From Acidobacteria bacterium 13_1_20CM_3_53_8 (GTDB lineage Bacteria; Acidobacteriota; Blastocatellia; Pyrinomonadales; Pyrinomonadaceae): a DNA stretch of 64,000 bases. The translations under genes were made by a program, and so were the position numbers. Shown in pieces: positions 13,580 through 39,758 of the stretch. The stretch is taken from assembly GCA_001920415.1 (NCBI GenBank), contig MNJR01000023.1, forward strand, positions 1 through 64,000, in the 5' to 3' direction. How positions within the stretch are numbered: position 1 is the first letter of the stretch; each line of letters starts with the position of its first letter. The notes under the pieces were generated by a model that saw nothing but the letters and a program-made list of their open reading frames with translations, did not search any database and was not told the DNA's origin.

Positions 13580-13625
13580 AGCTCCTTTTCTCCTCTCCCT
13601 TTTTTTGGGCGAAAAGTTTTTATCG

Positions 13626-14465
13626 TTAATAGACTATAGGATACTGCTGACGTAGTTGGCCTACGCGCGTCTGAAATTGGTCGGGCGGCAGCGCCATCAA
13701 AGCATTATGCTCGTCTTGCGGCAGAATGATGACGTAGCCGCGCATCCTGTAATGAAACTGCCCGCACAATTCCGCGCAAGCCAATTCGTACTGCCCCGTT
13801 TTCGTCGGCGTGAAATGAACGTGAATCGCCATGCCCGGCACAAGGTCTTGCTTGAATCTTAAGGGCGGAACCCAGAAGCTGTGCGTCACGTCAATCGAGC
13901 GCAGTGTTAATTCGACGGGACGATTAACTGGAAGCACCAGCGTTGCCAAAACAGCATCGTCTCTGGATTTAGGGTCTGCCGGATCAAGACCTATGAGGTT
14001 CGACGAGCCTATGAGCGAAGGGTCTGTGCGACCGAATTGGCCGTCAACGCCCGCGTAATGAAAATTCCACTGGAATTGCTGAGCAACGACTTCGACTTGG
14101 TACGATCCCGCAGGCGCGCCCACAAAATGAAGCTGCGCCCAGACGCGCTGGCCTATGACGGCCAATGAGATGAAGACCACAGCCGTAACGACAGTCCAGA
14201 TAATCTCAAGACGATTATTGCCGTGCGAATAGACCGCTCGCGTAGTGTCGCCCGGCGTCGCTCTATATTTCCAGACAGCCCACCCGAGCGCGACTTGCGC
14301 CGCCACGAAGCTTATGCCAACCACTATGATCGTACGCATAAACTGGCGGTCAATCTCAGGCCCATGCTCCGATATGGTAGCCGGAAACCACCACTTGCCG
14401 CTCGCAAACAGCAGCACAGAGCCGAGCGTAATCAGCCAGATGAGAACACCCAAAGCGCGACCCAT
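13626..14465 (-). CDS. ctaC: Cytochrome c oxidase subunit II (CuA subunit)
   Basis: 279 residues with two N-terminal membrane helices and a cupredoxin domain. The binuclear CuA ligands are visible: H195 in IDVTHSFWVP and C230, C234, H238, M241 in CAELCGQFHYRM. Q-W-N-F at about 132-135 is the aromatic electron-entry patch. Unlike many caa3 enzymes there is no fused C-terminal heme c domain, so a separate cytochrome c must deliver electrons. The strong AGGAGG ribosome site begins right where repeat A2 ends. Confidence 0.96.
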   Translation of the reverse strand: MGRALGVLIWLITLGSVLLFASGKWWFPATISEHGPEIDRQFMRTIIVVGISFVAAQVALGWAVWKYRATPGDTTRAVYSHGNNRLEIIWTVVTAVVFISLAVIGQRVWAQLHFVGAPAGSYQVEVVAQQFQWNFHYAGVDGQFGRTDPSLIGSSNLIGLDPADPKSRDDAVLATLVLPVNRPVELTLRSIDVTHSFWVPPLRFKQDLVPGMAIHVHFTPTKTGQYELACAELCGQFHYRMRGYVIILPQDEHNALMALPPDQFQTRVGQLRQQYPIVY

Positions 14466-14479
14466 CAGCGAACCTCCTA

Positions 14480-14575
14480 AGAGCAGTTTTCAGTTTTTAG
14501 TTTTCAGTTTTCAGTAAAAGCATTTCGCTCTTCTTTCTGAAAACTGAAAACTAAAAACTGAAAACTGTTTTTATC
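14480..14575. repeat. Heptamer inverted repeat, TTTTCAG family, copy A2
   Basis: Arms of TTTTCAG/TTTTTAG units and their complement, ends TAAGAGCAG and CTGTTTTTATCAC. On the minus strand the right end reads GTGATAAAAACAG, and its TGA is the stop codon of ctaB. The left end touches the ribosome site of ctaC. Lies between two co-directional operon genes. Confidence 0.88.
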
Positions 14576-15494
14576 ACCTATTCAAGACCATTAATCCAAA
14601 GAGCAGTGGTAGATAGAGAACCGATGCAAGCAGGAGCCGTCGTGCGTGCTGTTTTGATTTGGAAACGGCTGCGCGGACGCTGCTGTAGAGAAAGAGAGCG
14701 CCGAGCACGATGGCACCGCAGAAATAAATTTTACCGGAAATACCTAGAACTGTTGGCAGAAGGCTCACGGGAATAAGCATGAGCGTGTACGCAACAATCT
14801 GCCGAGCAGTGACGCGGCCTTCGGGTTCGATTACGGGCAGCATCACGATGCCTGCGCGCCTGTAATCCTCTTTATACATCCATGCGATTGCAAGAAAATG
14901 CGGGAACTGCCAGAGAAAGAGTATTGCGAATAGAACCCACGCTTCCACCCCCACTTCGCCACGCGCCGCAGTCCATCCCATCAGCGGCGGCATAGCGCCC
15001 GGAAACGCGCCAATCGCAGTTGAAAGGCTCGTGCGCGTCTTCAAAGGCGTGTAGAGAAAAAGGTAGCCTACGATAACGGAGAGGCCGAAGGCCGCAGTTA
15101 TAGGGTTGACCAGAAAAGCCAGATAAGCTTCTGCAATGGTCGTGAGCCAGATGCCCAGAAAAAGAGCTTCAAACGGCTGAAGTCTTCCCGAAGGGAGCGG
15201 GCGCAAGCTGGTTCTACGCATAAGCCCGTCAAGGTCTCGCTCCATGAATTGATTTAGCGTAGCTATGCCGGAAGAGAGCAGTGTGATTCCGGCGAGCGCG
15301 TGAAGAAGATTCAGGTAATCAATAGGCCCGCGCGCGCCTAGGAAATAGCCTGCGGCTGAAGTCAGTACGATAAGAAAAGTTATACGGGGTTTTGTAAGTT
15401 CAATGTATGCAGAGACGCGCTCGCGCGCCGTAAGACGCACAGCTTCATCTCCGGCGACAATGCCGCGATCAATCTCGACTGCAACTGCTTTCAT
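14574..15494 (-). CDS. ctaB: Protoheme IX farnesyltransferase (heme O synthase)
   Basis: 306 residues with about nine membrane helices. It belongs to the UbiA prenyltransferase family: the first Asp-rich motif is NQFMERDLDGLMRRT and the second YKEDYRRAGIVMLPV. It attaches a farnesyl chain to heme b to make heme O, the precursor of the heme A needed by the adjacent ctaD oxidase. TKPRITFLIVLTSAAGY near the start is typical. The stop codon is furnished by the end motif of repeat A2. No ctaA heme A synthase is seen in the window. Confidence 0.95.
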   Translation of the reverse strand: MKAVAVEIDRGIVAGDEAVRLTARERVSAYIELTKPRITFLIVLTSAAGYFLGARGPIDYLNLLHALAGITLLSSGIATLNQFMERDLDGLMRRTSLRPLPSGRLQPFEALFLGIWLTTIAEAYLAFLVNPITAAFGLSVIVGYLFLYTPLKTRTSLSTAIGAFPGAMPPLMGWTAARGEVGVEAWVLFAILFLWQFPHFLAIAWMYKEDYRRAGIVMLPVIEPEGRVTARQIVAYTLMLIPVSLLPTVLGISGKIYFCGAIVLGALFLYSSVRAAVSKSKQHARRLLLASVLYLPLLFGLMVLNR

Positions 15495-15563
15495 ACATTA
15501 ACAGGATTACAAAAATAGGTTTCTAATCAGTATTTAACTTACCCTATGCAACCGAATATTTTC

Positions 15564-15772
15564 AGCCATCGAAGATGGCGACAGCATAAAGCCCAGTGCG
15601 TTAGCGCTGGGGTAAAGATGAAAAAATATCAATCGAGCTATCGAAGATAGCGACAGCCCTAGAATTGCTCATGCTCTGTCGCCCACTCTCGCGGGCTTGA
15701 ATACTTTGTTGCTATCATTTCCCAGCGCTAACGCGCTCTCGCTTTAGACGGTCGCCCGCTCGCGCGGGCTGG
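15564..15772. repeat. Modular hairpin element, copy E1
   Basis: A 200-base palindrome of mini-hairpins: GCCATCGAAGATGGCGACAG, then AGCCCAGTGCGTTAGCGCTGGG, then GAGCTATCGAAGATAGCGACAG, followed by the mirrored set (GTCGCCCACTCTCGCGGGC, CCCAGCGCTAACGCGCT, GTCGCCCGCTCGCGCGGGC). Each module can fold alone, and the halves can pair with each other. It occupies most of the 389-base gap between the lipoprotein and ctaB genes; nothing else is seen there. Confidence 0.85.
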
Positions 15773-15883
15773 AATCCGAACTTCGCGTATGATGAGTTGG
15801 TTAAATCAAAATGCGATAACAGTGTTCTTGTGAAAGGCGGCGGAACTGTTAATGTGCCCGCCGCCTTTCACATCTAACTTCTC

Positions 15884-16768
15884 TCAATGCTGTTCCATCA
15901 GCATTGGAACGTCGAGCGCGGGCATAACTTCAAGAGAGCGTTGGCCGCTCGCCGTAGCGCCACCAGTCGGGCTGAAGCTGAAATCTGCTGTGGCCGTGCC
16001 GTTGGCATCAACCTTCACAGTTCCCAAGGTCTGCTCGCCCAATTTCTCGTGCCATGCAACGACCGTGTACGTTCCGGGCGGCACGCCTTTGATTGTGTAT
16101 GTGCCGTCGTCGCCGCTCACTGCGAAGAACGGGTGCTTCATCACGGCTATGTGCGCCTTCATCCAGGGATGCTGGTTGCATTTGACTGGAATGACTATTT
16201 CGGGGCGCGGGAAGCTCTTGACTATATCGGGTGCGCCCGCAGGCTGCGACTGATTCCACTCTTGGTTCGTATGCGGCGTTGGGTGAATGTTGTGAGTGGT
16301 CTGGTCGCTGTTCTTGATGTCTATCTTCTGGTTGACCATCACGCCCAGAACGTGCGGCCTGTAATGGCAACCGTTCTGATCCAATGTCACTGCGTCCGAA
16401 GGCGTGTCAAAGCCTAGGCTATCTATGTTCTGTCCGTCTGCGGTCGTTCCAGACTTGACGTAGACCAAAACGTTCGCAAGGTGGCCGTTGCTGGCTACTA
16501 CATCTTCGGTCGTCAGATTAGGATTATGAGAAGCGCAGAAAGGGTCTGCGGAAAGGTCTGGCTTTGAGTTGGCGGGAGCCTGACCGTTCAGGGCAACTGT
16601 GCCCTTGATGGTTCCCTCGTTGCCTTTCGGCTTCCACTTATTTGCCGTTGGGCCTCCGGTATTGCCAGTTTCGCCTGTGTCCTCGCTCTTCTTGCAAGCA
16701 ATACCGAGCGCTAGAAGCGAAAGGATTATAGAGATGGCAAGCCAGAAGCGTGCGCGTCTGATGAGCAT
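15884..16768 (-). CDS. Lipoprotein with cupredoxin-like and carboxypeptidase-regulatory domains
   Basis: 294 residues from ATG 16768 (GGAGG 8-12 bases upstream). Lipobox LALGIAC puts the acyl cysteine at about residue 26 of this start. Residues about 60-215 resemble a cupredoxin-like fold found near respiratory complexes, with HNIHPTPH and VIPVKCNQHPWMKA supplying His/Cys/Met metal-ligand candidates. Residues about 220-265 (GTYTIKGVPPGTYTVVAWHE) are a carboxypeptidase regulatory-like beta domain. Placed 70 bases after the multiheme cytochrome, it may pass electrons between that complex and the CuA subunit; this is inference. Confidence 0.75.
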   Translation of the reverse strand: MLIRRARFWLAISIILSLLALGIACKKSEDTGETGNTGGPTANKWKPKGNEGTIKGTVALNGQAPANSKPDLSADPFCASHNPNLTTEDVVASNGHLANVLVYVKSGTTADGQNIDSLGFDTPSDAVTLDQNGCHYRPHVLGVMVNQKIDIKNSDQTTHNIHPTPHTNQEWNQSQPAGAPDIVKSFPRPEIVIPVKCNQHPWMKAHIAVMKHPFFAVSGDDGTYTIKGVPPGTYTVVAWHEKLGEQTLGTVKVDANGTATADFSFSPTGGATASGQRSLEVMPALDVPMLMEQH

Positions 16769-16837
16769 GTGTGATTCCTCCAAATCAGTATGATTTCTTT
16801 TGTGCCATTAAAACACAACTATTGCGTTATGAAAACT

Positions 16838-18940
16838 CTAGCCAGCGCGATGCGCGACCGCATAAGCGACCACGGGGCTGCGCGAACTGTAATTCTTCAC
16901 GCGCGCACTCGTCTTTGGCCTTCCACGATTCTGCGGCGCAATATTTCTGCTGACGGGTTTTTGACCGTGCGCAGTCTGCCCTTGCTGCTGCGCGCCATGC
17001 GCGGGCGAAGGCGCTGCGCCTCCAGTTGCGGGCGCAGGGCTTGCAGAGAGAAGGCGCTGCTGCTCGTCCTGCGTCATCAACATCATGTAGCGCACTAACA
17101 GCTTGGCATGATCGCCTTGATAATCTTGAACCGCTTGAGGGACGTTCGGAATGTTCGTCACCCATCGGTCGCCTTCCTGCCTGAATAGTCCTGTAGGCAT
17201 GGCCGTGCCCGGACTTATCTGCGCAGGATCAAGCAGCCAGCGGAATGTCCAGTCGGGTTTGAGACGCTGCCCCGCTATCATGAAGTTCGGCGCAATCGCA
17301 GTCGCGTCGTGTTGCGCGTTGCCTGTCATGTGACATTTCAAGCACGGCGTGCCTGAAGTGAATAGCTGGCGAGCGATAAGACGCTCCTGATCCGTCAGCG
17401 GGTCAAGCTGCTGCGGTATGTACGGGTCTTCCTGCGATGAGACGGCCATGAAGAAGCGCACAAGCTTCTGCAATTCGTTCGGCGAGAAGGTGAACGTAGG
17501 CATGCGCGCTCTCAAATAGGTTCGCACACCGTTGTTATTTGCGCCCGGCTGCGGCGGCAATTCACCGTGCGATCTATCAGCTTGCTGCGCAGCCTGATTA
17601 TTCTGTTGACTGTTTTGCTGCGCCGCGCCCGTGTTTGCGCCCGCAACAGGAGGCGCACTCGTGCTGACTGCTGCTGCCGCGTTGTTAGTCGAAGGCTGCG
17701 CGTTGCCTGATTGAGCGCTAGCGCTTTGCGGGCCAGCGAGCGACGGGTCGCGCAGGAAACGAAGCAGCCAGTTGGGATCAACGCGCGCGCCTTCGCTTGA
17801 AAGTCTAGGCGGCAATTGATCGCGCCAGTCCGGCGTCTGATAGAGCGGCAGTCCCATCAAGACAGAGTTTTGTCCCACCTGGATGCTGTGACAGCCCATG
17901 CAGTTGTACTTCTTAACAACCCACCAACCTTCTTGAATATCTCTTCGCCTGTCGCTCGGATTGTAGAACATAGTCTGAGGCACGGTTGCGCCTTCCGCTC
18001 CCACACTGCCCAGCAGGAACGTAGTCAGAGCAGTGCGCCATTCGTCCGTCAGGAAAGGCTTAGGCATTCGCAGACGGTCAGCAGGAGCTTTCTCTTTTCC
18101 TCTATCATAAATAGCAGGGTCTGAAAGTTTATGTGTGAAAAAGCCCTGATGCGTGTACCACTCTTCGTGATTGTTCTGGTCAAGCGGGTCAACGCCACGT
18201 TCTGCGTCATTGGTCAGCATGGCGAAGTCCAGGCGCTCCATTGGCGTTGCGCCTTCCGTCGTCAACTCTTTACCAATTCGCTGCTCGTCCTCAAAGCCGC
18301 GTATCTCGTGGCAGCCTGCACAACCGTACTGCTTGATTAGAGCTTTACCGCGATCATGCAGGCTAGCATCGGTCAGGTAGGAAGTATCAGGGTATGATTC
18401 CGGTTGAGAGAGCGAGAATAAGTATGTGGCTATGTCTCGCGCGTCCGTGATAGGCAGACGGAAGTTGGGCATCACAGTCATGTTCTGCACTTGCAGTTCC
18501 GCGCCGTCGTTTGGACAACGCGAATGCTGCTCCGTGTCGAAGACGAACGGAAGATTGTGATTAGCGTAATCCTGCGGCGTTAAATCACGGTGCTCGCGCG
18601 GGCAGTAGGGCGCCCAGCGATTGCGCGGGTTATAAATCCAGCGGACTATGTAATCGAAGTTCGCCTTCTGACCAACTTTCGTCAGGTTCGCCGCAAAGTC
18701 TCCGCCCACGTGCTCGCCGTTCTCGTCAATCGAGTGGCAGGCCATGCAGCCGCGCGTGTGGAAAAGCTCGCTGCCGTGCTGAGCATCGCCACGCTGCTGC
18801 TGCGGTACTTGCCCATCAAAACTCTCCTGCCAGAGATAGGCCGCGATTGCTTTAATCTGGTCTGCGCCGTCTTCATCACGTTGAAGTCGCCAGAACGTAG
18901 GCATCTTTGTGCCGGGACGAAACGCTTGCGGGTCTTGCAC
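16838..18940 (-). CDS. Multiheme cytochrome c, downstream part (frame-shifted from upstream ORF)
   Basis: 700 codons, opening at GTG with no ribosome site and overlapping the upstream cytochrome ORF by 65 bases in another frame. Its first residues (QDPQAFRPGTKMPTFWRL) look like the middle of a cytochrome c domain, so it is probably the continuation of that ORF. Four CxxCH heme sites are present (CMACH, CAGCH, CMGCH, CLKCH), each followed by a MP-type methionine loop. A low-complexity Ala/Gln/Asn/Ser linker splits the third and fourth. The last 45 residues are basic and unlike a cytochrome. Expected outside the membrane as electron carrier between the bc-type complex and the oxidase. Confidence 0.8.
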   Translation of the reverse strand: MQDPQAFRPGTKMPTFWRLQRDEDGADQIKAIAAYLWQESFDGQVPQQQRGDAQHGSELFHTRGCMACHSIDENGEHVGGDFAANLTKVGQKANFDYIVRWIYNPRNRWAPYCPREHRDLTPQDYANHNLPFVFDTEQHSRCPNDGAELQVQNMTVMPNFRLPITDARDIATYLFSLSQPESYPDTSYLTDASLHDRGKALIKQYGCAGCHEIRGFEDEQRIGKELTTEGATPMERLDFAMLTNDAERGVDPLDQNNHEEWYTHQGFFTHKLSDPAIYDRGKEKAPADRLRMPKPFLTDEWRTALTTFLLGSVGAEGATVPQTMFYNPSDRRRDIQEGWWVVKKYNCMGCHSIQVGQNSVLMGLPLYQTPDWRDQLPPRLSSEGARVDPNWLLRFLRDPSLAGPQSASAQSGNAQPSTNNAAAAVSTSAPPVAGANTGAAQQNSQQNNQAAQQADRSHGELPPQPGANNNGVRTYLRARMPTFTFSPNELQKLVRFFMAVSSQEDPYIPQQLDPLTDQERLIARQLFTSGTPCLKCHMTGNAQHDATAIAPNFMIAGQRLKPDWTFRWLLDPAQISPGTAMPTGLFRQEGDRWVTNIPNVPQAVQDYQGDHAKLLVRYMMLMTQDEQQRLLSASPAPATGGAAPSPAHGAQQQGQTAHGQKPVSRNIAPQNRGRPKTSARVKNYSSRSPVVAYAVAHRAG

Positions 18941-20345
18941 GGTAACGCGAATTCAAGTTTAACTGATCAATGCGCGCGGCCAACTGGCTGTTCGTAACAT
19001 GCAGTGATTCAATATGAGCCTTCAACTGCTGCGCCGTCGCATCATCGGTTTCAGGACGGCTACTAACCTCTTCCGATTCCAAAGCTTCGCGGTCGTTCGC
19101 TTTCTGCTGCTCCTCCAACTGACTTATCAACTGTCTTGCATTGGATAGCCCGTCAGTCTCGCGGTCGAATCCTTCATAGCGATGGCAACCAACACAACCA
19201 CGATTCTGGAAAAGGTCGCGCCCTAGATTCAGCGTTGAAGCGTAATCAAGAACGCGGTCGTTCTGGTGGCACTGCACACAGCCAGCTTCAGTGTACTGGC
19301 GGTCGTAGAGCGGATGCAGCCAGAAAGGATTAAGGCCGTGAGCCTTGACGACTGTGGTCGTCGCGCGACCGTTGCCTCCGTGACATGCAGAGCAACCGAA
19401 GCGGTCAGGGTTATGAATCTGAAGTAGCTGGCGGTTCGGATGCGATACAAATGCACGAGCCAGATCGTCAGGCTTCTTGTTACCCGTAGTGAAATTGGCG
19501 GGCGTCAATTCCAGAGGCTCGCGCACGCCCATGTGGCATGTCTCGCAACGGTCAACCAGATTCGTTTCGTTGACGTTAATCTGATGAATAGTGAAATCGA
19601 AATCGTCGTTGCGCTTGATAAGACTGTCAATCTGCTTCGCAGTCAAACCGACCATGTGATTCTTCAAATAGTCGTCCCGCTTCTTCGCTGCATCAGCGTA
19701 AGGCTGCAAAAGTTTCGTGCGATCTGCAAGATACTGCGCCTTCCTATTTTTGAGGTCGTTGTATCGTTCTTCAAGCTGCGTGAAATTGAGATGTTGGGTT
19801 TCAACCCTGCCGTCGTCTGTGGGATATTTGATTGTAACCTGCTCAGCCCTCTTTTTCGCCACCTCTTGACGAATCTTATTTTTCGCTGAATCACTTCCGG
19901 CCTGCTCTATGCGGTAGTTAAGAACACTTATCTGGCCACGCTGATTCTGGAAAGGGTCTGTTACGACTGCAAGCTGACTCTCTATGAGTTTGACTTTACG
20001 ATCAATCTCCTGCTTCTGAGGCTCTGCTGCCTGTTGCGCCGCCTGAGCTTCCGCATCAAGCTGCTGGTACTCAGGCGTGTTCTTAACTTCCCCTTCAGTC
20101 TGCCCCGCGTTCTTCTTGATGCTCTTCAAGTAACGATTCTCGCGCTCGACGAACTCTCGCTGGTATCCCTTCCAGGGGCGCTGCCCGTAAACCTCGTCGT
20201 AGAGCGCCCACGCGAGCGAGCCGATTAAAAGTATCGCGCAGATGAGCATGATGCCGCTCGTTGAGCGGCTGATGATGGGATCGCGCTCAGGCAGCGCCGC
20301 ATCTTCTCTTTTCACCAGAGCATCTTGTTCCGTAGAGTCAGCCAA
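18876..20345 (-). CDS. Multiheme cytochrome c, upstream membrane-anchored part
   Basis: 489 codons beginning with TTG (GGAGGAAG upstream). One membrane helix (about residues 30-47) is followed by about 180 residues of charged coiled coil, then four CxxCH sites (CETCH, CSACH, CVQCH, CVGCH). A second coiled coil runs to LHVTNSQLAARIDQLNLNSRY, after which the frame turns to an unlikely Arg/Ser tail. The natural continuation resumes in the next ORF, so the intact protein would be octaheme, of roughly 1,200 residues. Gene order behind the cytochrome b genes shows it replaces cytochrome c1. Confidence 0.8.
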   Translation of the reverse strand: MADSTEQDALVKREDAALPERDPIISRSTSGIMLICAILLIGSLAWALYDEVYGQRPWKGYQREFVERENRYLKSIKKNAGQTEGEVKNTPEYQQLDAEAQAAQQAAEPQKQEIDRKVKLIESQLAVVTDPFQNQRGQISVLNYRIEQAGSDSAKNKIRQEVAKKRAEQVTIKYPTDDGRVETQHLNFTQLEERYNDLKNRKAQYLADRTKLLQPYADAAKKRDDYLKNHMVGLTAKQIDSLIKRNDDFDFTIHQINVNETNLVDRCETCHMGVREPLELTPANFTTGNKKPDDLARAFVSHPNRQLLQIHNPDRFGCSACHGGNGRATTTVVKAHGLNPFWLHPLYDRQYTEAGCVQCHQNDRVLDYASTLNLGRDLFQNRGCVGCHRYEGFDRETDGLSNARQLISQLEEQQKANDREALESEEVSSRPETDDATAQQLKAHIESLHVTNSQLAARIDQLNLNSRYRARPASVSSRHKDAYVLATST

Positions 20346-20523: not shown

Positions 20524-21639
20524 TCAGATATTAAACCAGGGCGTAACCCAGACGTATTTTATTGTGAATACCAACCGTATGAGCAGTTTTACAGGGAACG
20601 CAAGAAGCACAGAGATTGCGAAGAACTGAAACGTCATGTATTGCAAGATGCTGGTGCGCGCCAGCAACTTCTTTTCGAACTCGTCCTTCGTTGTCAGCCA
20701 CAGCCATAAACGCTTCCACCAGGGCAGCGAATGGTCAATGCGATTGAGTCCGCCTCGCGTCATCAACCAGTGGAAGAACATCCCGCCCACTACGTAGAAC
20801 ACTCCGACCACAACTGCGCCGAAGATGACTTTCATCCACCACGTAGAGCCTCCGAAATGTTCGGGCGTAATCCCGAAGATGTCAGGAAGATCGCGGTTCT
20901 TGTCAAACACAACCGCATTATGATCCCAGGTCTGTCCCGGCCAGAACCAAATCCAACCCGGCCCGCGTATGAACGTTCCAATAATGATAAGGGTAATCCA
21001 CATGAAAAAGCCCCACATGAACATCCCTATGGCGAAGCGACGCTGCTTCCAGGAATAGTAGCCATTCCCAAGTGGATTTGAATCAACGTAAGGGAAGACC
21101 ATCAATCCGATAATCATCACGCTTGGCATCACTACGCCAGCAATCCACGGATCGAAATAGACCAGCATCTCTTGAAGACCCAGAAAATACCAAGGGGCTT
21201 TTGACGGGTTCATAGTGAGATTCGGGTTAGCGGGTTCTTCCAATGGCGCGTTGAGCGTGATTGACCAGACGAAGAGAATAATCGTGACGATAAGCGTGGC
21301 TAGAAATTCTATGCGCACCAGATAAGGCCAGACGTGAATCTCGCGCGCCCAACCGGGACGCCACGGCAGAGTCTTGCGATGATGAGTTTTGGCTAACTGC
21401 TTGTCTCCTTCAAGCTCTACGACAAGTTGATCGTTAGCCTGCGCCTGCTTGATTCCCAGCCAGGTGAAGAAGGCCACAAGCGGTATTAGAGCGACAATCG
21501 GGATGTTGTCGGGCGCAGAGGCAATCTTCCAGAGTTGATGCCAGTCCTGCACGAAAAATATCGCATAGAGCGCGACGCCGATAACCAGCAAGAGCAGAAC
21601 CACCTTGCCTAAAGTGAGCCTGAATCTTCCCTCTGCCAT
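20524..21639 (-). CDS. Cytochrome b C-terminal subunit (subunit IV-like)
   Basis: 371 residues. One N-terminal helix precedes a 60-residue soluble part, then three or more helices of the cytochrome b C-terminal half. The quinol-site motif appears as KAPWYFLGLQEML, the PEWY variant. A fourth and fifth helix and a 50-residue cytoplasmic loop extend beyond the usual b6f subunit IV. With the separate N-terminal gene this is the split, b6f-like layout used by menaquinol-oxidising complexes. It is separated from its partner gene by modular element E5. Confidence 0.9.
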   Translation of the reverse strand: MAEGRFRLTLGKVVLLLLVIGVALYAIFFVQDWHQLWKIASAPDNIPIVALIPLVAFFTWLGIKQAQANDQLVVELEGDKQLAKTHHRKTLPWRPGWAREIHVWPYLVRIEFLATLIVTIILFVWSITLNAPLEEPANPNLTMNPSKAPWYFLGLQEMLVYFDPWIAGVVMPSVMIIGLMVFPYVDSNPLGNGYYSWKQRRFAIGMFMWGFFMWITLIIIGTFIRGPGWIWFWPGQTWDHNAVVFDKNRDLPDIFGITPEHFGGSTWWMKVIFGAVVVGVFYVVGGMFFHWLMTRGGLNRIDHSLPWWKRLWLWLTTKDEFEKKLLARTSILQYMTFQFFAISVLLAFPVKLLIRLVFTIKYVWVTPWFNI

Positions 21640-21679
21640 CTTCCCTTTTCTCCGCCGAGAAATTTTCAGCTACATAAAG

Positions 21680-21872
21680 TTGAGCCGCGTCAGCGGCGCG
21701 AGTGAATTTAGCCCGGCTTTTCAAAGCCGGGAATCGAGTCGCAACCGCATGCGCCTCGTCGCTTTAGCGACGATTGAGTAATTCAATCGTCGCTAAAGCG
21801 ACGCCTATCAAATTTTGACAATCTCTCCCGGCTTTGAAAAGCCGGGCTAAATTCTGTTTGCCGCTAACGCGG
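21680..21872. repeat. Modular hairpin element, copy E5
   Basis: A symmetrical array: CCGCGTCAGCGG, AGCCCGGCTTTTCAAAGCC and CGTCGCTTTAGCGACGATTGA, then the three modules in reverse order and sense. Each module is itself a hairpin. It lies between two cytochrome b subunit genes of one operon, so it is transcribed. Confidence 0.85.
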
Positions 21873-21946
21873 CAGCATCGTCGGGCTAAGGATTCATGCA
21901 CAATCTTCGATTAGTAATCCCCTAGCTCTTTAATTGCAAAAACTCT

Positions 21947-22870
21947 CTACTTCCTCTTTACAGCTTTCATCTCAGATTCGAGCATCACAGGCGCGGGGCC
22001 GCTAATGCCTCCATCCTTGCGTATGCGCCAGAAGTGCACGGCCATGAAGATAGAGGCGACGAGCGGTATGCCTATGCAATGCCATATGTAAGAGCGAAGG
22101 AGCGCGTTCGCATCAACGATTGAGCCACCCAGAAGCCCAAAGCGAACGTCGTTGTAAGGCGTCATGCCCAACTGCGGCCCGAACGGCCCTTCGTGTCCGA
22201 ACATTGGAGTCGCACGCGCCATGTTCGTTCCAACTGTCACAGCCCAGAATCCTAGTTGATCGTCCGGCAACAGGTAGCCAGTGAATGAAAGCAGTAGTGT
22301 AAGCACCAGAAGAATAACGCCCACGCACCAGTTGAACTCGCGCGGTCGCTTGTACGAACCCGTCAGCACAACGCGGAACATATGCAGCCACGTAGTGATA
22401 ATCATCAGGTGCGCTGCCCAGCGATGCATGTTCCTCAAAAGTTTTCCGAAAGGAACGTCGTGCTCTAAGTAAAGAATGTCGCGGAAAGCCTGAACCTTCG
22501 TAGGGTGGTAGTAGAACATCAAGAGCACGCCCGTAAAGGTCAGAACGATGAAAAGGTAAAAAGTAATGCCGCCCATGCCCCACGTGAAATTGTAGCGAAC
22601 TGCGTCACGGTTAACTTTCGCAGGATGCAGGTGCAGAAAGACGTTTGAAAGAATTGCAAGCGAGCGGTTGCGCGGATCGGAACGATCATGCGAAACGCGA
22701 AAGATTGATTTCCATAGCTGTGTCTGCTGCGGGTCGCGGTAACCTTTCGCCTCTTCGATTGCGCGGTTCTTCAATTCGACCGCATCCTGGCGCACCTTCG
22801 CCGCAAGGCCCGTCTCGCTCTTCTCGCCCTCTAACTGCTTGGTCTCCCGCTCTGGACGCTCAGGCTCCAT
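21947..22870 (-). CDS. Cytochrome b N-terminal subunit (diheme)
   Basis: 307 residues from ATG 22870 (AGGAGA upstream). A charged 85-residue cytoplasmic leader precedes four membrane helices. The heme b ligands are the paired histidines in LLRNMHRWAAHLMI and the later RSYIWHCIGIPLVASIFMAVHFWRIRKDGG. It oxidises (mena)quinol with the Rieske protein encoded just upstream. The helices end where b6-type proteins end, consistent with a split cytochrome b. Stop at 21947, then the 300-base gap with element E5. Confidence 0.93.
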   Translation of the reverse strand: MEPERPERETKQLEGEKSETGLAAKVRQDAVELKNRAIEEAKGYRDPQQTQLWKSIFRVSHDRSDPRNRSLAILSNVFLHLHPAKVNRDAVRYNFTWGMGGITFYLFIVLTFTGVLLMFYYHPTKVQAFRDILYLEHDVPFGKLLRNMHRWAAHLMIITTWLHMFRVVLTGSYKRPREFNWCVGVILLVLTLLLSFTGYLLPDDQLGFWAVTVGTNMARATPMFGHEGPFGPQLGMTPYNDVRFGLLGGSIVDANALLRSYIWHCIGIPLVASIFMAVHFWRIRKDGGISGPAPVMLESEMKAVKRK

Positions 22871-22876
22871 CAAGGT

Positions 22877-22976
22877 CTCCTAATTTTGGATTTTAGATTG
22901 CCGATTTTGGATTGAAAGAAAGACCAGCGCTTCCCTTCAATCCGTTCGCTAATCCAAAATCCAAAATCCAAAATCG
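22877..22976. repeat. Heptamer inverted repeat, AAAATCC family, copy C1
   Basis: Left arm units GATTTTA, GATTGCC, GATTTTG; right arm three copies of AATCCAA ending in AATCG. It fills the gap between the Rieske stop codon (22977) and the cytochrome b start, inside the operon. Confidence 0.85.
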
Positions 22977-23657
22977 TCAGAGTTGTAAGAACGCTCCATC
23001 GTCGTTGAATTCGTTGCGCTCGCCTTTTGGCGCTTTGTAGAGCTTCGCCGTGTTGACGACGATCTGCCCTTCGGCGTCCAGCTTCACTTCGGCGCGATCC
23101 ATTGGGCGCGGCGCAGGGCCTTCAAAGTTAACCCCTTCGCTGTCGTAGCCGCTGCCGTGGCAAGGGCATTTGAATTTGTTCTCGCTTGGCCGCCAGTCGG
23201 GCGTGCAGCCCAGATGCGTGCAGCGCGCGTAGATGACGAACACGCGATCCGACGTTTTATCAACCCAGATGCGATACTGCTGCTGCCACTTGGTGTCAAC
23301 GCCTATGCCGTAATCTGAAGGAAAGCCTATACGGAAGACGCTCGAAGGCTCGAAGATGGCGCGCGGCAGAAAAAAGCGCAAGAACATCAGGAAGCAGGTC
23401 GTCAAGAATCCTGCGACTGTAGCCCACACTATGCGGCGGCGCATCTTGTTCACGGGCGGGTCGGGCGCTGTCTCGATCACCATCCCTGCGGGCTTCGCTG
23501 CTGATTTCGTAAAGCCTCTTGCGACCCGTTCGGTCGGAGTGCTGGTAGCACTGGCTGCTCCGGGCGCAACTCGCGTAGCCGCCTGCGTAGTCGCAGGAAC
23601 TTCCGTTGGTACAGCCTGAGTTTCATCAGGCTCTGTTCTATTGACTGGACTGTCCAC
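22977..23657 (-). CDS. Rieske 2Fe-2S protein
   Basis: 226 residues, GTG start with GGAGGAG 9 bases upstream. A long Ala/Thr/Pro-rich N-terminal region (about 75 residues) precedes one membrane helix and the Rieske fold. Cluster ligands: C146 and H148 in CTHLGC, C164 and H167 in CPCHGSG; C151 and C166 make the stabilising disulfide. First gene of the quinol oxidase operon with split cytochrome b and the multiheme cytochrome. The leader is longer than usual; it could be spaced cytoplasmic tail. Confidence 0.95.
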   Translation of the reverse strand: MDSPVNRTEPDETQAVPTEVPATTQAATRVAPGAASATSTPTERVARGFTKSAAKPAGMVIETAPDPPVNKMRRRIVWATVAGFLTTCFLMFLRFFLPRAIFEPSSVFRIGFPSDYGIGVDTKWQQQYRIWVDKTSDRVFVIYARCTHLGCTPDWRPSENKFKCPCHGSGYDSEGVNFEGPAPRPMDRAEVKLDAEGQIVVNTAKLYKAPKGERNEFNDDGAFLQL

Positions 23658-24461: not shown

Positions 24462-25328
24462 TCAATTTGCATCAAGGTGCAGTCTGACGGCTGACTCCTC
24501 AATTGCTGCGAAAAGATGTTCGCGCTCCTTTTCATCACGTGCCTGCCTGTAATCGGAAAGAAGCTCTTTCAGTCCGGCAAGCTCTTTGTAAAGCCCTGCA
24601 TTCTCTACGGGCGGCGTCAGGTAAGAGATAAGCTCAGCGTATGAGCGCCGCTTTGCGATTGAGCCTTCCGAAGGATTGTTCACGCTGTAGATGTAGACAT
24701 TTGGAAGTTCGCCAATCAAGCGATCCGGCCAGCATTTTTCCGAAAGCCCAACCTGCTTTCCCGGCATGAATTCCAACGAACCATGCGTTCCAACGTGAAT
24801 CACCGCATCGGCTTTGAAAACTTTTTCAATAAAGGTGTAGAACGCTGCGAAACCGTGATGCGGCGCTCCACTTCTAGCCATCAGAAGACGCATGGGATCG
24901 CCCTCGTAACCGAACGTTGGCTGCACGCCAAGGAAAACTTTTCCGAGCCTTATGCCTTGAATCAAGAGCTTTCCATCGAAACTATTAATCTCACCAGGCG
25001 CTCGCCCCCACTCTCTTTCAATATCTTCGACGTAAGGACACTTCTGGAAAAATTCGTCCACGCTCATTTTGTAAAGAACATTCGCAGTCGTTCCGTAGCC
25101 TTCTGCCTCGCTGCCTAATAGCATCTCGCGCAGACTGTCCGCGCTCTCCGGCACTTCAACATCGTAGCCATCATCTTTCAATTTTCGGAGAATGCCCATC
25201 ACACTCGGAAAGACATCCAACTCCGCAGCCGTTCCTATGTTTCCCTTATTCGGCGGGAAGCAGAACACGACAACCGCAATCTTCAACTCTTCCCTTCGAG
25301 CCGTCTGCAAACGATTCCAGCGCATCAA
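24462..25328 (-). CDS. BchH-type chelatase, middle part (after frameshift)
   Basis: 288 codons continuing the preceding ORF in another frame; coding sense extends back to about 25375 (EPVQLEERCRRLARRLMRWN). It carries BchH/CobN family landmarks: IAVVVFCFPPNKGNIGTAAELDVFPS, HHGFAAFYTFIEKVFKADAVIHVGTHGSLEFMPGKQVG and PNVYIYSVNNPSEGSIAKRRSYAELISYLTPPVENAGLYKEL. The HVGTHGSLEFMPGK block is the conserved metal/porphyrin site region. In normal BchH this leads straight into the C-terminal half, but here a stop follows at LHLDAN and the C-terminal half is encoded upstream instead. Confidence 0.85.
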   Translation of the reverse strand: MMRWNRLQTARREELKIAVVVFCFPPNKGNIGTAAELDVFPSVMGILRKLKDDGYDVEVPESADSLREMLLGSEAEGYGTTANVLYKMSVDEFFQKCPYVEDIEREWGRAPGEINSFDGKLLIQGIRLGKVFLGVQPTFGYEGDPMRLLMARSGAPHHGFAAFYTFIEKVFKADAVIHVGTHGSLEFMPGKQVGLSEKCWPDRLIGELPNVYIYSVNNPSEGSIAKRRSYAELISYLTPPVENAGLYKELAGLKELLSDYRQARDEKEREHLFAAIEESAVRLHLDAN

Positions 25329-25356
25329 TCGCCGAGCCAGTCGCCTGCATCTTTCT

Positions 25357-26625
25357 TCAAGCTGTACAGGCTCGCACCCACGCCGCCACCTGCATCCCAG
25401 CCTGCACAGGATTCAATCCAATCTCCGATTCTCGCCATGCCTCAATCGTCTGCATATCCAGGCTCACAGTCGAACGAAACGGACGATTAAGGTCTCGCAA
25501 AAACTCCGCAGCAGCCGCGCTGTCATTCATCGCAGGCCCACCGACAAAGCTGAATCCCGTCAAACTGACAATCTGGCTCACACGCGATTTCTTATTCTTC
25601 TTCCCCTCTTTCCCTCTTCCCCTCTTCCCCTTTTCACCCTTCCCTTCATCGTTCTCAACGAAAAACTTCTCACACGCCTCGCGGTTGTCCATCAAGGTAG
25701 AAAGCGCAGGGAGAACCTGCAACCCTTCATCTTCAATCGCTCGAATCAAACCGTCGTAAGCTTTGCGCGTATTGCTCACAACCTGCGGGCGCATCAGCAG
25801 TAGCCCTATTGTCTTTTCGGGATCAAGCCGACGTTTACAACGCCGCTCGTACCACTTCCTGTACTTTTCAAACTTTCCGAAAAGTCCCGGCGCATCAGGG
25901 TGATAAATTCCTACCGACGGCATAGCTTCCGGCTGCGGCAACTTTATTTTCAATCCTCTAACACGCTCATCTGCCGCATAATTCTTAATAGCGCAGAGCA
26001 GCATAGAGCGTATGTTCGCAGGCGTTGGCTGTAGAAAATAGCAGAAGATGTAAAGGTAATTTTTGAAGTCGCGCAATCGTCCCGCAGAAGGCACAAGACG
26101 AAGAAGCGAAGGCAGTCGTTCGGCAAGCCTCAAGTATTGCGCGTGATTCCCTCTCTTCTTCTCACGTCGCGCGCGCACCTGCTCGCCCATCCAAGAGGCC
26201 ACACGACCAACGAGTCGCCTTGCACGCTGAGCGCCCGTCTTCGATTCATCTCTTCCAGCGCGCTCTTCATCATTCGATTTGGCAGCGCCGAACAGTTTTG
26301 AAAAATCGAGTTGCCCCATGCGCGTGCGTCGCATAAGGTCCGGCATACAATTAATCACCACGACCGCACGATTGCGCCCGAAGGACTTTTCCAGACATGA
26401 GAGCAGCCGCGTGGCGTTCTCGCCATCCATCACGTGAATGACGAAAACAACATCCGCCTCGCTCAAATCGCGCTCCACCTCGCGCCACTCATCTTCATTC
26501 AACGACGCGCCGAAATTGTAAGCCGCCAGACGAAGACCTAACTTGTACTCACGATTAATCTCCCGCTCCGCCTGCTTGAGCGGCGCTAGAAGACTTGAGC
26601 CGACGTAAAGGACTGTAGCGTTCAA
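25357..26625 (-). CDS. BchH-type chelatase, N-terminal part (frameshift at its end)
   Basis: 422 codons, TTG start. The first 130 residues match the DUF3479 domain that marks BchH/ChlH rather than CobN (VFVIHVMDGENATRLLSCLEK, VVINCMPDLMRRTRMGQLDFSKLFG). Later blocks are also typical: MLLCAIKNYA, YHPDAPGLFGKFEKYRKWY, IGLLLMRPQVVSNTRKAYDGLIRAIEDEGLQVLPALS and SLTGFSFVGGPA. The frame then ends abruptly at AAWVRACTA while the family continues in the next frame, so one base appears gained or lost near 25377. Probably one gene with the ORF at 24462, giving about 720 residues, or the N-terminal 55-60 percent of BchH. Confidence 0.85.
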   Translation of the reverse strand: MNATVLYVGSSLLAPLKQAEREINREYKLGLRLAAYNFGASLNEDEWREVERDLSEADVVFVIHVMDGENATRLLSCLEKSFGRNRAVVVINCMPDLMRRTRMGQLDFSKLFGAAKSNDEERAGRDESKTGAQRARRLVGRVASWMGEQVRARREKKRGNHAQYLRLAERLPSLLRLVPSAGRLRDFKNYLYIFCYFLQPTPANIRSMLLCAIKNYAADERVRGLKIKLPQPEAMPSVGIYHPDAPGLFGKFEKYRKWYERRCKRRLDPEKTIGLLLMRPQVVSNTRKAYDGLIRAIEDEGLQVLPALSTLMDNREACEKFFVENDEGKGEKGKRGRGKEGKKNKKSRVSQIVSLTGFSFVGGPAMNDSAAAAEFLRDLNRPFRSTVSLDMQTIEAWRESEIGLNPVQAGMQVAAWVRACTA

Positions 26626-26650
26626 GCAATTACCCCGATAGAAGAAAGCA

Positions 26651-26735
26651 GATTATCTACGAAACGACACGAAGCGACACGAAGGGAAACAGTTTCTTGA
26701 TTCGTGTTGCTTCGTGTGATTTCGTGGATAATTAT
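26651..26735. repeat. CACGAAG inverted repeat, copy G2
   Basis: Left arm TTATCTACGAAACGACACGA with 10-base units; right arm TTCGTGTTGCTTCGTGTGAT followed by TTCGTGGATAA. It lies exactly between the C-terminal and N-terminal halves of the split BchH-type gene, and its right end touches the C-half stop codon at 26732. Confidence 0.8.
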
Positions 26736-28501
26736 ATTATGCCTTCTAGTTGATCTTCGAGACTAGAGAAAATCTCCCCTAACCTTTCAAGCATATGTGT
26801 ATCGGCTTTCCAGAATCCGCGCCCTTCTGCTTCAAGAAGACGACTGACGAGCGAATGAACTGAATGCGGATTCAAATTGCTCAGTCGTTCAAGCATCTTT
26901 TCGTCCAGCAGGAAAGTTTCTGCGACTTCCGTGTAAACCCAATCGTCAACGGCGTCCGTGGTGGCGCTCCAGCCGAAGGTGTTGGTGACGTGGCTTTCAA
27001 TCTCGGCCACGCCTCGGAAGCCGTGAGCGAGCATTCCTTCGTACCATTTCGGATTAAGAGTTTTCGTGCGCGTCTCTAATCGCACAGTCTCTTCTAGCGA
27101 ACGCACCTTTGTTTCGCGCGACAGTGAGTCGGACAGGTAGATTGCGGGTTTAGAATTCGCGCGCTTCTCCACAGCTTTCGCCACTCCGCCCAGATACTCG
27201 AAATAGTGATCTACGTCCGTTATGCCAATCTCGAATGAATCAATGTTCTGGTGCGCGGCCTCCACGCGGGACAGCGCGCGTTCCATCGCAGAACGAGCCT
27301 CGCGCCCTTCAATCATGCGCCCAGAGGGGTCACGCCCGTAGGCGAAACATTTTCTGGTTACGAACAGGTCGCCAAGTGTTTCGCCGCTATCCCACTGGGA
27401 ATCCATGACCATGAAGTTGACGTTCGTGCCGTAGTTGCCGGGAGCGTTCGAGAAGAGACGCAGCGCTGCTTCGTCGAATGAAAAGTTCTCTTCTTCGACC
27501 TGTCTAAGAACATTCTTTCTCAAAAAATTCATCTCAGGCGGCTCGTCCAGCGAAGCGACCAATCGCACGGCCTTGTCCAGCAAGTTCATCGTCGCACCGA
27601 ACAGGTCTCGGAAAATCCCCGAAAGAGTCATCACCACGTCTATGCGCGGGCGCTTCAATATTTCGAGCGGAATCGGCTCGACTTCGGTCGCACGATTCAA
27701 TTGGTCGCGCACAGGTCTGACTCCAAGAAGCCAGAGCGCCTGTGCTACGCCCTCGCCCTGAGTCTTGATGTTGTCTAAGCCCCATAGCACCAGCGCCATT
27801 GCGCGCGGATAACTTCCCTTTTCTGCCAGGTGTCTTTCAAGTAGGTGCTTGACCACATGCTCGGCTCTGGTGAAAGCAATCTCGGAAGGAATCATGTAAG
27901 GATTGACGGCGTGAGTATTTCGCCCCGTAGGAAGTATGTCTGGATTCTGAACGATGTCTGCGCCGGGGCCTGGCTCTATGTATTCGCCACGCAACGCGCG
28001 TGCGAGCGCTTCAAGTTCGCCGTTCGTCTTCAACTGCTGCGAAATATTTTCGAGCAGAGCGAACATTAGCCGTGAATCCTGCGCGCGGACATGCGCACTA
28101 TCTTCTAAATAAGCTATTGCCGCATCAATTCCGCTTTCGAGAAAAAGCGAGATGGATTTGCGTACGATAGATTCAACGCGCTCGCGTGATTTCAATGCTT
28201 CGCCATTATTGAAAGAAGCGGCGAGCAAGGATTGATAATCCCCAAGGCCAAAGCCTTCGGAAACGAGATCGGTCAACGCGCGCGCTCCCTTCTCTTCACG
28301 GTCGAACGAAGCGACCATGCGAAGCATGTCTGCCTGCGAGCGCTCACCAGCCACGCGACCGAAGACGTGAAGCCCCGTTGGAATCAATCGCTCTTCAATC
28401 TCAACAAGCTGTTCGTAGAGCTTGAGCACGCGCCGTTCGCGCTTGTCCGAAGAAGATGCTGAGCTTGATTTTGTCTCTGTTTTCTTCAAAAGCTTTCCCA
28501 T
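26732..28501 (-). CDS. BchH-type chelatase, C-terminal half as a separate gene
   Basis: 589 residues with its own ATG. It opens with a hydrophilic lysine/serine leader and then KLYEQLVEIEERLIPTGLHVFG, the point where the second half of BchH/CobN begins. Landmarks: LPTGRNTHAVNPYMIPS, PRAMALVLWGLDNIKTQGEG, RPRIDVVMTLSGIFRDLF, SNAPGNYGTNVNF and FGWSATTDAVDDWVYTEVAETFLLD, close to the normal C-terminus. All expected blocks to the end are present. It precedes the N-terminal part in the operon, reversed from the family order. The halves could associate to form the porphyrin-binding subunit that works with the adjacent BchID. Confidence 0.88.
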   Translation of the reverse strand: MGKLLKKTETKSSSASSSDKRERRVLKLYEQLVEIEERLIPTGLHVFGRVAGERSQADMLRMVASFDREEKGARALTDLVSEGFGLGDYQSLLAASFNNGEALKSRERVESIVRKSISLFLESGIDAAIAYLEDSAHVRAQDSRLMFALLENISQQLKTNGELEALARALRGEYIEPGPGADIVQNPDILPTGRNTHAVNPYMIPSEIAFTRAEHVVKHLLERHLAEKGSYPRAMALVLWGLDNIKTQGEGVAQALWLLGVRPVRDQLNRATEVEPIPLEILKRPRIDVVMTLSGIFRDLFGATMNLLDKAVRLVASLDEPPEMNFLRKNVLRQVEEENFSFDEAALRLFSNAPGNYGTNVNFMVMDSQWDSGETLGDLFVTRKCFAYGRDPSGRMIEGREARSAMERALSRVEAAHQNIDSFEIGITDVDHYFEYLGGVAKAVEKRANSKPAIYLSDSLSRETKVRSLEETVRLETRTKTLNPKWYEGMLAHGFRGVAEIESHVTNTFGWSATTDAVDDWVYTEVAETFLLDEKMLERLSNLNPHSVHSLVSRLLEAEGRGFWKADTHMLERLGEIFSSLEDQLEGII

Positions 28502-28520: not shown

Positions 28521-28666
28521 GAGTTTTAGGAGTTAAGCAGTTGAACGAACAAGTCAGTACCGCCTGCGGTAGCGGGCGGGTATGATGCCGCACAAGACCC
28601 GCCCGCTACCGCAGGCGGTACTGACTTTTTCTGCGCTCTCCTCTCAACTGCGTAACTCCTAAGTTT
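28521..28666. repeat. CAGTACCGCCTGCGGTAG inverted repeat, copy F1 with outer arms
   Basis: The inner palindrome at 28551-28627 has arms GTCAGTACCGCCTGCGGTAG and complement. Outer arms GTTTTAGGAGTTAAGCAGTT (from 28523) pair with AACTGCGTAACTCCTAAG (to 28663). The element overlaps the 3' end of bchID: its last residues SQYRLR and its TAG stop are repeat sequence. Confidence 0.85.
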
Positions 28667-30786
28667 ATTCGCGGAAACGATTGTTCACCGCTTGAAATCG
28701 CGGAAGGGAGTTGAATGTATTTGGCCTGAAGTTTTTCCGCAAGATTCTCAGCCTCATGATTCTTAACGAGCTTGCTGTTCGTATCTACAAGTACGACTGA
28801 TACTCCCGCTTTGCGCAATGCGCAGCCGAGTTCAACTATCTCTTCGTCAATCCGCACACTTCGCTCATCTCTTGAGGTCACATGCGCGCCGCGCATCGGA
28901 ACATTCGCGCGGCCGTCTGTGAAGAGAAGAAGTACGATCTTCTGCGCGCAACGTTGAGACGCGCGGCTGGCAATTTGGAGCGATGCATGGAGTCCTGCTG
29001 AGAGCGGGGTTGCGCCACCAACGGGAAGCGAGTCTAGTACGTTGCGCGCGCGCGTGATGCTCTGGCTTGGGCCAAGCAGAACGTCAGCCCCTTCGCCTCG
29101 AAAGCTTACGATTGCAACGCGGTCGCGCGCGACGTACGATTTTTTCAGGAGCTTAAGAAGCGCGCCCTTCGCCTGTCGAATTCGATTCAAAGCCATGCTG
29201 CCCGATGCGTCCAATGCGAAGATGAAGAGCGTTCCCACTTTCCGCCGGAACTGTTTGTAACGCAGCGCACTCAAGGGAACGAGCAATAATCGTTTGTCTT
29301 CATCAGGCATGTGAAAAGTTGTTTCCGTAATCGTAGCGGCAAATGCTCGCGCAGTCGCGTCTAGCGCAAGGCGGGCGTGAACAGGTTTGCGCGATATGGC
29401 TCGCGCGTAACGCCCGCCGCGCCGGTCGTCAACGCTTTGTCTGGCTTGCGCAGGTCGTCTGCTCTTTCTCCCTAAACTCTGTTTTCGCTGCGCCAAAGAA
29501 TTTTTTTCTAAAATTGTTTCTTGAAATTCTCCGCTGAACTCTTCGATTGGAGCGCTCTGCTCTTTTCCATTGCTCGCAGCATCTTTCGATTCTCTATTTC
29601 TGCTGGAACTTTTCACACTATTTTCTACATCACCAGATGATTCATTTCGCTCTCGAAGCGATCTCTTATTTTCCACTCGCTCTCGCTCGCCCATCTCATT
29701 TCGTTCAGAATCTTGATGAAAAACTCGCTCAAGCTCATTTTCTATGCGCGCACTGCCTCCGCCTGAGCGCTCCATTGGGTCGCGGCGCAGGCGGTGACGA
29801 AGCGACATAGCGGCAACTCTCTGTACATCATTGGCCGTGACCTCTCGTCTTCCTTCAAAAGCAGCCAGCGCGCGTGCTGCGCGAGCAATCGTAATTTCGC
29901 CGCGATGTCCATGAACGCCAAGCCTCTGGCAAAGCTCCGCAATCTTGCGCAGGATTTTTGATGAAATAGTTATTTTCGGAAAATTGTTTCGCGCTCGTGT
30001 GATTCGCCTGCGAAGGCTCTCCTGCTCTTTCCCAAAAGTTTCCCGAAGACGCTCTGAATCGCGCTCGAACTCTTCCATCAACTCTACTACGCGCACGCGC
30101 TCGCCAACATCTTCGAGCGTTGTTACTTCAACGCACAGGCCGAAGCGATCTTGAAGCTGCGGGCGAAGCTCTCCTTCTTCTGGATTGCCGGAGCCAACTA
30201 GAACGAAACGCGCGGGGTGCTTTATGGAAATTCCTTCACGTTCGACCACGTTGCGACCGGTCACAGAGACATCTAGTAGAAGATCAACCAGATGGTCTTC
30301 AAGAAGATTTACTTCGTCAATGTAGAGAAATCCGCGATTGGCGCGAGCGAGCAATCCAAGCTCGAACGCTTTGACGCCTGCTGTGAGCGCGCGTTCTATG
30401 TTGATGCTGCCAGTTACGCGGTCTTCCGTAGCGCCCAGAGGCATGTCAACTACGGGCACAACGACACGCACGCGCGTCAATTTTCCTTCTTTACGGAGAC
30501 GCGAATCGCAATCGGCGCAATGCTCTGCCTCTTCATCTGGATCGCAGTTGAATGGGCAACCGCGCACAACCCAAACGGGCGGCAAAAGGTCTGCGAGCGC
30601 ACGAACGGCTGTAGACTTCCCGGTGCCGCGATGACCCATGACGAGCACGCCTCCAATGGAAGGCGCTATGACGCTCAAGATGAGCGCGAGCTTCATCTCC
30701 TCCTGCCCAACGATTGCGGCGAAGGGAAAGGGCGCGCTCCTGTGTCGCTCCGATCTTTTTGCTGTGCGCGCTTGAGGACGATTCAT
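28606..30786 (-). CDS. Fused BchI-BchD-type AAA/VWA subunit of a metal chelatase
   Basis: 726 residues. Residues about 25-340 are a complete BchI-like AAA+ ATPase: Walker [10 protein letters not shown] at about 51-59, the [17 protein letters not shown] cysteine cluster, Walker [15 protein letters not shown] and sensor [20 protein letters not shown] charged Ser/Glu/Arg linker of about 110 residues follows. Then comes a BchD-like VWA domain with the metal site DASGSM at about 526, GGATPLSAG and [11 protein letters not shown]. It would drive Mg2+ or Co2+ insertion by the BchH-type subunit encoded next. The last 20 codons lie in repeat F1, so the native C-terminus may be changed. Confidence 0.9.
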
Positions 30787-31358
30787 CAATTGGGTTTTCG
30801 ACTATAATTTTTCAGGAAATGTTTTTTAGCGTGTTTGACGGACTGCCTTTTCTTGACAGACCTTTTTAACCGAAAAGCGTAAGCTTCGGCAAGGAGGGAA
30901 AGAAGGGATGAGGGATGTGAACTCATTGTACGCGGCCAGAGGTCTTAAGCCGTCTTTAGACGGCGACAGCATAAAGCCCGGTGCGTAAGCGCCGGGATTA
31001 GAGTCGAACAAAATATTGATAGAGCTATCGAAGATAGCGACAGCCTATTGATTGTTCAGGGCTGTCGCCCGTTGTCACGGGCTTGCGCTTTTATTCGGCG
31101 GTCTTTCCCGGCGCTTACGCACCGGGCTTTATGCTGTCGCCCGCTCGCGCGGGCTGAAATCTAATTATCGCACAAAGTGAATTAGCGATTATTCTTTCCG
31201 CCTTACGCCTTCGTAATTCCTCCTTGCTTTTCAAACTTGGGCATCTCGTTTATCATTGACGCTATCTAACGTGGTGCTTGAGGCTTTTTCGAGGGAGCCA
31301 GAAAGTTTTAGCTTGTTGGTCGCTCGATGTTTTTTCATCCTCTATTTTCCGAAACCAA
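30787..31358. other. Intergenic region between divergent bchID and resB genes
   Basis: 572 bases. It holds a GGGATGAGGGATG word near 30905 (related to the K family) and modular element E3 at 30940-31161. The remaining 190 bases are A/T-rich and show no convincing promoter or gene. Confidence 0.6.
30940..31161. repeat. Modular hairpin element, copy E3
   Basis: Modules: AAGCCGTCTTTAGACGGCGA with CAG, AAAGCCCGGTGCGTAAGCGC with CGGG, GAGCTATCGAAGATAGCGAC with AGCC, then the mirrored series ending GTCGCCCGCTCGCGCGGGC. First and third modules differ from E2, while the central GGTGCGTAAGCGCC module is the same. Confidence 0.88.
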
Positions 31359-37760: not shown

Positions 37761-37885
37761 AGCGCACTCAAGCAAGAAAGTATCTTCCCCGATAAATGTT
37801 CGCGTCTGGAAGAATCTCTACTTCGGCTCAACGAATTTTCAAATATCTTCTCGCCCGGTCAGTCGCACAAAGCGAGCATTTCAAC

Positions 37886-39705: not shown

Positions 39706-39758
39706 CACAAACTCCCGAAATGTCAAAACTCCTGCATTGAACATGAAATGTAGATTTG

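Follow-up and report, generated by a model that had tools for sequence, protein, structure and literature searches.

The closest described systems to the locus analysed here are BchH/ChlH (4ZHJ, 6YSG; TIGR02025), the cobaltochelatase large subunit CobN (7C6O), and HmuS (9D26). BchH/ChlH is encoded by one gene as a single polypeptide of ~1,300 residues with a DUF3479 head, and it has I and D ATPase partners. The ChlH residues H621, E625, Y651, Y653, E660, and H1174 are reported as catalytic or as part of a putative proton path (PMC13297055). The C-terminal part of ChlH was crystallised alone (5EWU, 6YS9), which makes its separate folding plausible. HmuS is a CobN-like single chain from a heme uptake context, with no I/D ATPase in its operon (PMC12583661); its hallmarks are the heme ligands Met79 and His254, a Met-rich insertion, and the hmu operon.

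The chelatase described here shares with BchH/ChlH the DUF3479 head, the collinearity over the whole length, the catalytic residues, and the I and D ATPase partners. Unlike BchH/ChlH, it is encoded by two genes with the C half first, forms a distinct clade, and occurs without the bacteriochlorophyll pathway. With CobN it has the superfamily and the fold in common, but CobN matches both halves more weakly, no DUF3479 match is reported for CobN profiles, and the genomes with the split pair have no corrin pathway. The superfamily and the six-domain plan are also shared with HmuS, which gives only a distant match; the split-chelatase loci that were read showed no hmu operon. A limited search of the open-access literature turned up no earlier account of a BchH that is split or reversed.

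The window, i.e., the whole stretch of 64,000 nucleotides that was analysed, lies within a contig (C146) of the draft genome of Acidobacteria bacterium 13_1_20CM_3_53_8 (6.1 Mb, 155 contigs, 96% complete). A search of the whole draft with PF02514 detected a single locus, a split class-I chelatase H, and no full-length H subunit gene elsewhere, which excludes an intact second bchH in this assembly. On the minus strand, a fused I/D ATPase is followed by the C-terminal half of the H subunit (H-C), the N-terminal half (H-N), and a cytochrome bc/oxidase operon. The chelatase features are as follows:

28606..30789, minus strand: fused I/D ATPase of a class-I chelatase with AAA+ and von Willebrand/MIDAS parts, 727 aa, the first chelatase gene
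26732..28501, minus strand: H-C, a 589-aa chain that makes up the C-terminal half of the BchH-type H subunit and bears the H1174 equivalent
25357..26625, minus strand: first piece of H-N, 422 aa, comprising DUF3479 and the beginning of the CobN/Mg-chelatase domain, ending prematurely at a frameshift
25357..25384, minus strand: lesion in H-N, ~20 conserved residues (IPELDGATEPFVYGG...) gone together with a frameshift, as seen in an alignment with 19 intact relatives
24462..25376, minus strand: second piece of H-N, the in-frame continuation with the frame read from 25376, bearing the H621, E625, and E660 equivalents

The ATPase matched the profiles TIGR02030 BchI (E 8e-154), TIGR02031 BchD (E 7e-149), and TIGR02442 (E 7e-197), and inspection by eye showed that the Walker A (GHRGTGKS), Walker B (FLYIDE), and MIDAS (DASGS) motifs are kept. 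H-C covers positions 541-1089 of PF02514 (E = 2e-181), 692-1271 of the BchH profile, and 734-1330 of ChlH. The first piece of H-N matches PF11965 (E 4e-21) and PF02514 positions 3-197, while the second, whose first start codon is at 25328 (ORF 24462-25328, 288 aa), covers PF02514 positions 240-540 (E 7e-107) and stops where the H-C chain takes over. With E values of 2e-181 and 7e-107, the PF02514 matches of the two halves are not due to chance. The coverage of H-C and H-N is complementary (541-1089 and 3-540) with zero overlap, both in PF02514 and along ChlH, in agreement with the first-pass annotation, which had proposed that the halves together make up the length of a whole BchH. That annotation had treated 24462-26625 as the first half; the region does hold DUF3479 and PF02514 positions 3-540, but in two ORFs of different frames and not in one gene. 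It had also spoken of permuted chains; the gene order is reversed, but each chain is collinear with BchH and contains no internal permutation.

Both halves scored higher with BchH profiles than with CobN profiles, which supports their earlier assignment to the BchH type. DUF3479 and the CobN/Mg-chelatase domain are both present, on two chains. The TIGR02025 scores of H-C (681) and of the intact N half of locus L025 (718.5) each lie below the 829-bit BchH equivalog cut-off, which only their sum would exceed. AlphaFold models of each half had low confidence (pLDDT 61.7), matched ChlH, CobN, and HmuS, and served for fold assignment only.

The profiles of the split halves were placed on the chain of Synechocystis ChlH. 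The N profile corresponds to residues 50-746 of the tagged construct (native ~30-726) and the C profile to residues 754-1350 (native ~734-1330); the position of E660 was used to infer the 20-residue numbering offset, which also fits the E660D chain 6YT0. The cut thus falls at ChlH residue ~726/734, with no overlap. The equivalents of H621, E625, Y651, Y653, and E660 are invariant on H-N (44 sequences of the split clade), and that of H1174 is invariant on H-C (58 sequences). Neither chain alone carries the full catalytic set, which is divided between H-N and H-C.

The lesion in the H-N gene of the window was overlooked in the first-pass annotation. The missing stretch is ~53 nt as counted by eye against locus L047, the reading frame changes at ~25357-25376, and the equivalents of H621, E625, and E660 all lie beyond the frameshift. 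Because of this deletion and frameshift, the H subunit may never be assembled in this genome. In relatives with the whole gene on the contig, H-N is intact (about 670-840 aa), with the exception of locus L146, whose genes are broken too. The N/C divergence ratio of the window copy is 1.04, no outlier, and apart from the lesion both pieces are conserved as in relatives, which indicates that the lesion is either recent or an assembly error. Unless it is the latter, the window's own copy is probably inactive. The interrupted chain weakens the case for the function of this individual copy, which may be dead or misassembled.

To place the split among relatives, 60 genomes of the class, the window's own included, were searched, and 27 of them had PF02514. 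Three families (f1, f2, and f4) showed the identical split at every locus with enough contig, and all loci of the split clade have two genes in place of the single polypeptide. A scan of named genomes yielded some 50 MAGs from Acidobacteriota, whose labels include Pyrinomonadaceae, Blastocatellia, Bryobacterales, and Terriglobia. H-C lies upstream of H-N on the same strand in 46/46 acidobacterial contigs that hold both halves, one of which is the 5.1-Mb chromosome OX638355.1. The claim that the C-terminal half is encoded before the N-terminal half therefore holds for the window (H-C at 26732-28501, then H-N) and for its relatives. Among 297 genomes drawn evenly across the phylum, only members of the window's class had DUF3479.

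The spacing of the two genes varies. Several species have overlaps of 4 nt between them, which suggest translational coupling; in genus g37, the N gene is on a separate contig. A palindromic repeat of the cgaagcgacacgaag type, which looks like a REP- or MITE-like element, lies between H-C and H-N in the window (26650-26734) and is common to the intergenic gaps of L078, L079, L104, and L116. Other loci have a caspase-like peptidase with DUF2059 (L028, 9583-10947; also L122) or a YhgA-like transposase (L040, 10696-11907; also L102) between the halves. Tandem duplication followed by reciprocal loss was considered as the origin of the order and set aside: at the loci tried, neither the larger C-N gaps nor the stretches behind N and ahead of C held any remnant of the missing halves, although old remnants would have vanished.

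The split acidobacterial sequences form one clade with 100% SH-aLRT in the tree of either half, separate from every full-length BchH sampled. The distances of H-C and H-N correlate with r = 0.93, indicating that the halves were inherited together. The conserved reverse-ordered split of a BchH-type subunit in one clade is thus a solid result. The nearest taxonomic relatives with BchH belong to the same class: three Chloracidobacterium-like genomes (family f3), in which BchM is present, have two full-length PF02514 genes each, not split. In one of them (G046), L050 is CobN by profile, and L051 is BchH-like and bears DUF3479. Unlike the split pair, L051 is one chain, and it falls outside the split clade. 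The L050 gene, a full-length CobN in a genome with just one PF00590 methylase, also has the appearance of an orphan chelatase; G050 and G054 each have a second full-length gene of a similar kind.

A BchH in two adjacent genes is also found in Chloroflexi bacterium Centralia_MAG_115 (L143, 5695-9308 of JAJPGV010000039.1). In contrast to the acidobacterial pair, its order is the normal N then C, with a 4-nt overlap, its C chain is shorter (500 aa), it adjoins B12 genes, and it lies outside the clade. The neighbours are genes for CbiG/corrin methylase and methylmalonyl-CoA mutase. This split is apparently independent of the acidobacterial one.

BchM is absent from the 60 class genomes except for the three Chloracidobacterium-like ones, and only short partial matches of the NifH/BchL family, with no BchL/BchX, were found in the window's own genome. 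The remark that no other photosynthesis gene is in the window can accordingly be extended to BchM and BchL/BchX in the whole draft. The single PF00590 gene of this genome leaves it without the corrin methylase set. Neither BchM together with BchL/BchX nor a best CobN match together with a corrin pathway accompanies the split pair; a second solid result is that the pair occurs in genomes lacking the B12 and bacteriochlorophyll genes that were tested. Most chelatase-bearing genomes also have the ferrochelatase HemH, so heme synthesis does not have to rely on the split chelatase; a replacement of ferrochelatase by the latter was rejected on the same ground. The window's own genome has two ferrochelatase genes (G000:C154:22843-23787 and G000:C60:116832-117734), and most relatives have one.

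The chelatase has the following cytochrome and respiratory genes on its two sides:

32879-34480, plus strand: CcsB of the system II pathway for cytochrome c biogenesis, transcribed divergently from the chelatase
31278-32882, plus strand: ResB of the same system II pathway, likewise divergent from the chelatase
22977-23657, minus strand: Rieske protein, part of the bc set at 20524..23657
21947-22873, minus strand: b6-type cytochrome b
20524-21639, minus strand: separate C-terminal part of cytochrome b
11675..20345, minus strand: remainder of the respiratory cluster, next after the bc genes
18876-20345 and 16838-18940, minus strand: multiheme and c-type cytochromes
14574-15494, minus strand: heme O synthase CtaB
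13626-14465, minus strand: COX2
11675-13579, minus strand: COX1

An AbiEii-like nucleotidyltransferase (39109-39744) and an HNH endonuclease (37206-37775) lie near the glycolysis genes that adjoin the chelatase operon. The Rieske protein, the b6-type cytochrome b, and its C-terminal part follow the chelatase at the majority of Pyrinomonadaceae loci, as they do at several loci from elsewhere. An orthologous cytochrome b was found in 22/24 genomes with the split chelatase versus 5/33 without it (raw Fisher p = 5e-9); the two split-chelatase genomes lacking it are incomplete. The association holds also where both loci are far apart. Independent pairs on the rpoB tree gave four cases for, none against, and one with no difference (p = 0.125), and the link to the bc complex is therefore suggestive only.

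Taken together, these results make it fairly probable that the split pair is a two-chain, ATP-driven porphyrin chelatase of the BchH type that acts outside chlorophyll and B12 synthesis. An ancestral H subunit would have been cut, apparently once, between the part with H621, E625, and E660 and the next helical segment, and the parts would have ended in the order C then N, to be expressed today, as predicted, from adjacent genes. H-N and H-C most likely join non-covalently into one ChlH-like cage with active-site residues from both chains, and the co-encoded AAA+/MIDAS ATPase would drive ATP-dependent metal chelation of a tetrapyrrole. The assembly of the chains, the ATP-driven insertion, the metal, and the porphyrin are what we infer for the pair; by family membership, insertion of Mg2+ into a porphyrin is the likeliest default. 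Counting against this reading are the broken H-N of the window's genome, the low confidence of the models, the metagenomic origin of almost all records, and the fact that no enzyme acting downstream on Mg-porphyrin was found; the adjacent respiratory complex, moreover, exists in some genomes that lack the chelatase.

A narrower form of this proposal is tentative, and we hold it to be possible more than probable: the two reverse-ordered chains, sharing an active site, would make or unmake a metalloporphyrin, neither chlorophyll nor B12, that serves the b6-type bc/oxidase complex of non-phototrophic Acidobacteria. It is proposed because nearly every genome with the chelatase has that complex too. 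G002 and family f7 have the bc cluster but lack the chelatase.

It is unlikely, although not strongly so, that the pair has an iron-linked role instead, removing iron from heme as HmuS does or serving in heme-iron turnover beside the cytochrome genes. Both halves are distantly related to HmuS, and the Bacteroidota HmuS de-chelates heme (PMC12583661), so a relative can run in reverse; the operon also adjoins heme-using and heme-handling genes. In the marine/sponge branch, a conserved gene of the metallo-beta-lactamase fold and DtxR-like regulators lie downstream of the operon, and two loci also have FeoB, so an iron-related role is still conceivable. A DtxR-type iron repressor fused to FeoA and then FeoB are located 3' of the split chelatase at L111 (16445-17724) and L113 (12880-14717). 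However, the Feo link is seen in this one branch only, the halves are BchH-like and distant from the CobN/HmuS side, and an I/D ATPase is co-encoded here, whereas HmuS is reported to work with NADH and to have no such operon partners (PMC12583661).

Insertion of cobalt (or zinc, or nickel) by a BchH-derived cobaltochelatase, e.g., in corrinoid salvage, is quite unlikely. The I/D fusion does resemble TIGR02442, the model of a putative cobaltochelatase subunit, and the BchH of L143, whose split is apparently independent, adjoins CbiG/corrin genes, its genome having seven PF00590 methylases. The genomes of the split clade, however, have one to three such methylases and the window's own has one, so they do not synthesise the corrin ring.

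Decay of the split genes into non-functional remnants is very improbable for the clade, and may apply to the single genome of the window. The frameshifted H-N, the broken genes of L146, and the fact that about half of the relatives have no such chelatase would fit decay, but both halves are open over many genera, their catalytic residues are invariant, and their inheritance is linked. Finally, a reversal of the order by misjoined contigs has a negligible chance, since, although nearly all records are metagenome-assembled and the window lesion is possibly an assembly error, the same order recurs in many independent projects and on OX638355.1, with flanks conserved on both sides.

If the split pair is functional, the 150-kDa H subunit does not have to be one polypeptide but can operate when made as two chains that each contribute catalytic residues, and the pair would be a natural tool to dissect the chelatase; to our knowledge, there is no solved structure of the full chelatase complex. 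A functional pair would also mean that an ATP-driven chelatase of the BchH type operates in a widespread lineage that makes neither chlorophyll nor B12, and which metalloporphyrin it handles would be a new question. It should be noted that a bchH match in Acidobacteriota is poor evidence of phototrophy. A well-known enzyme of chlorophyll synthesis has apparently been rebuilt from two chains in many non-photosynthetic members of this phylum.
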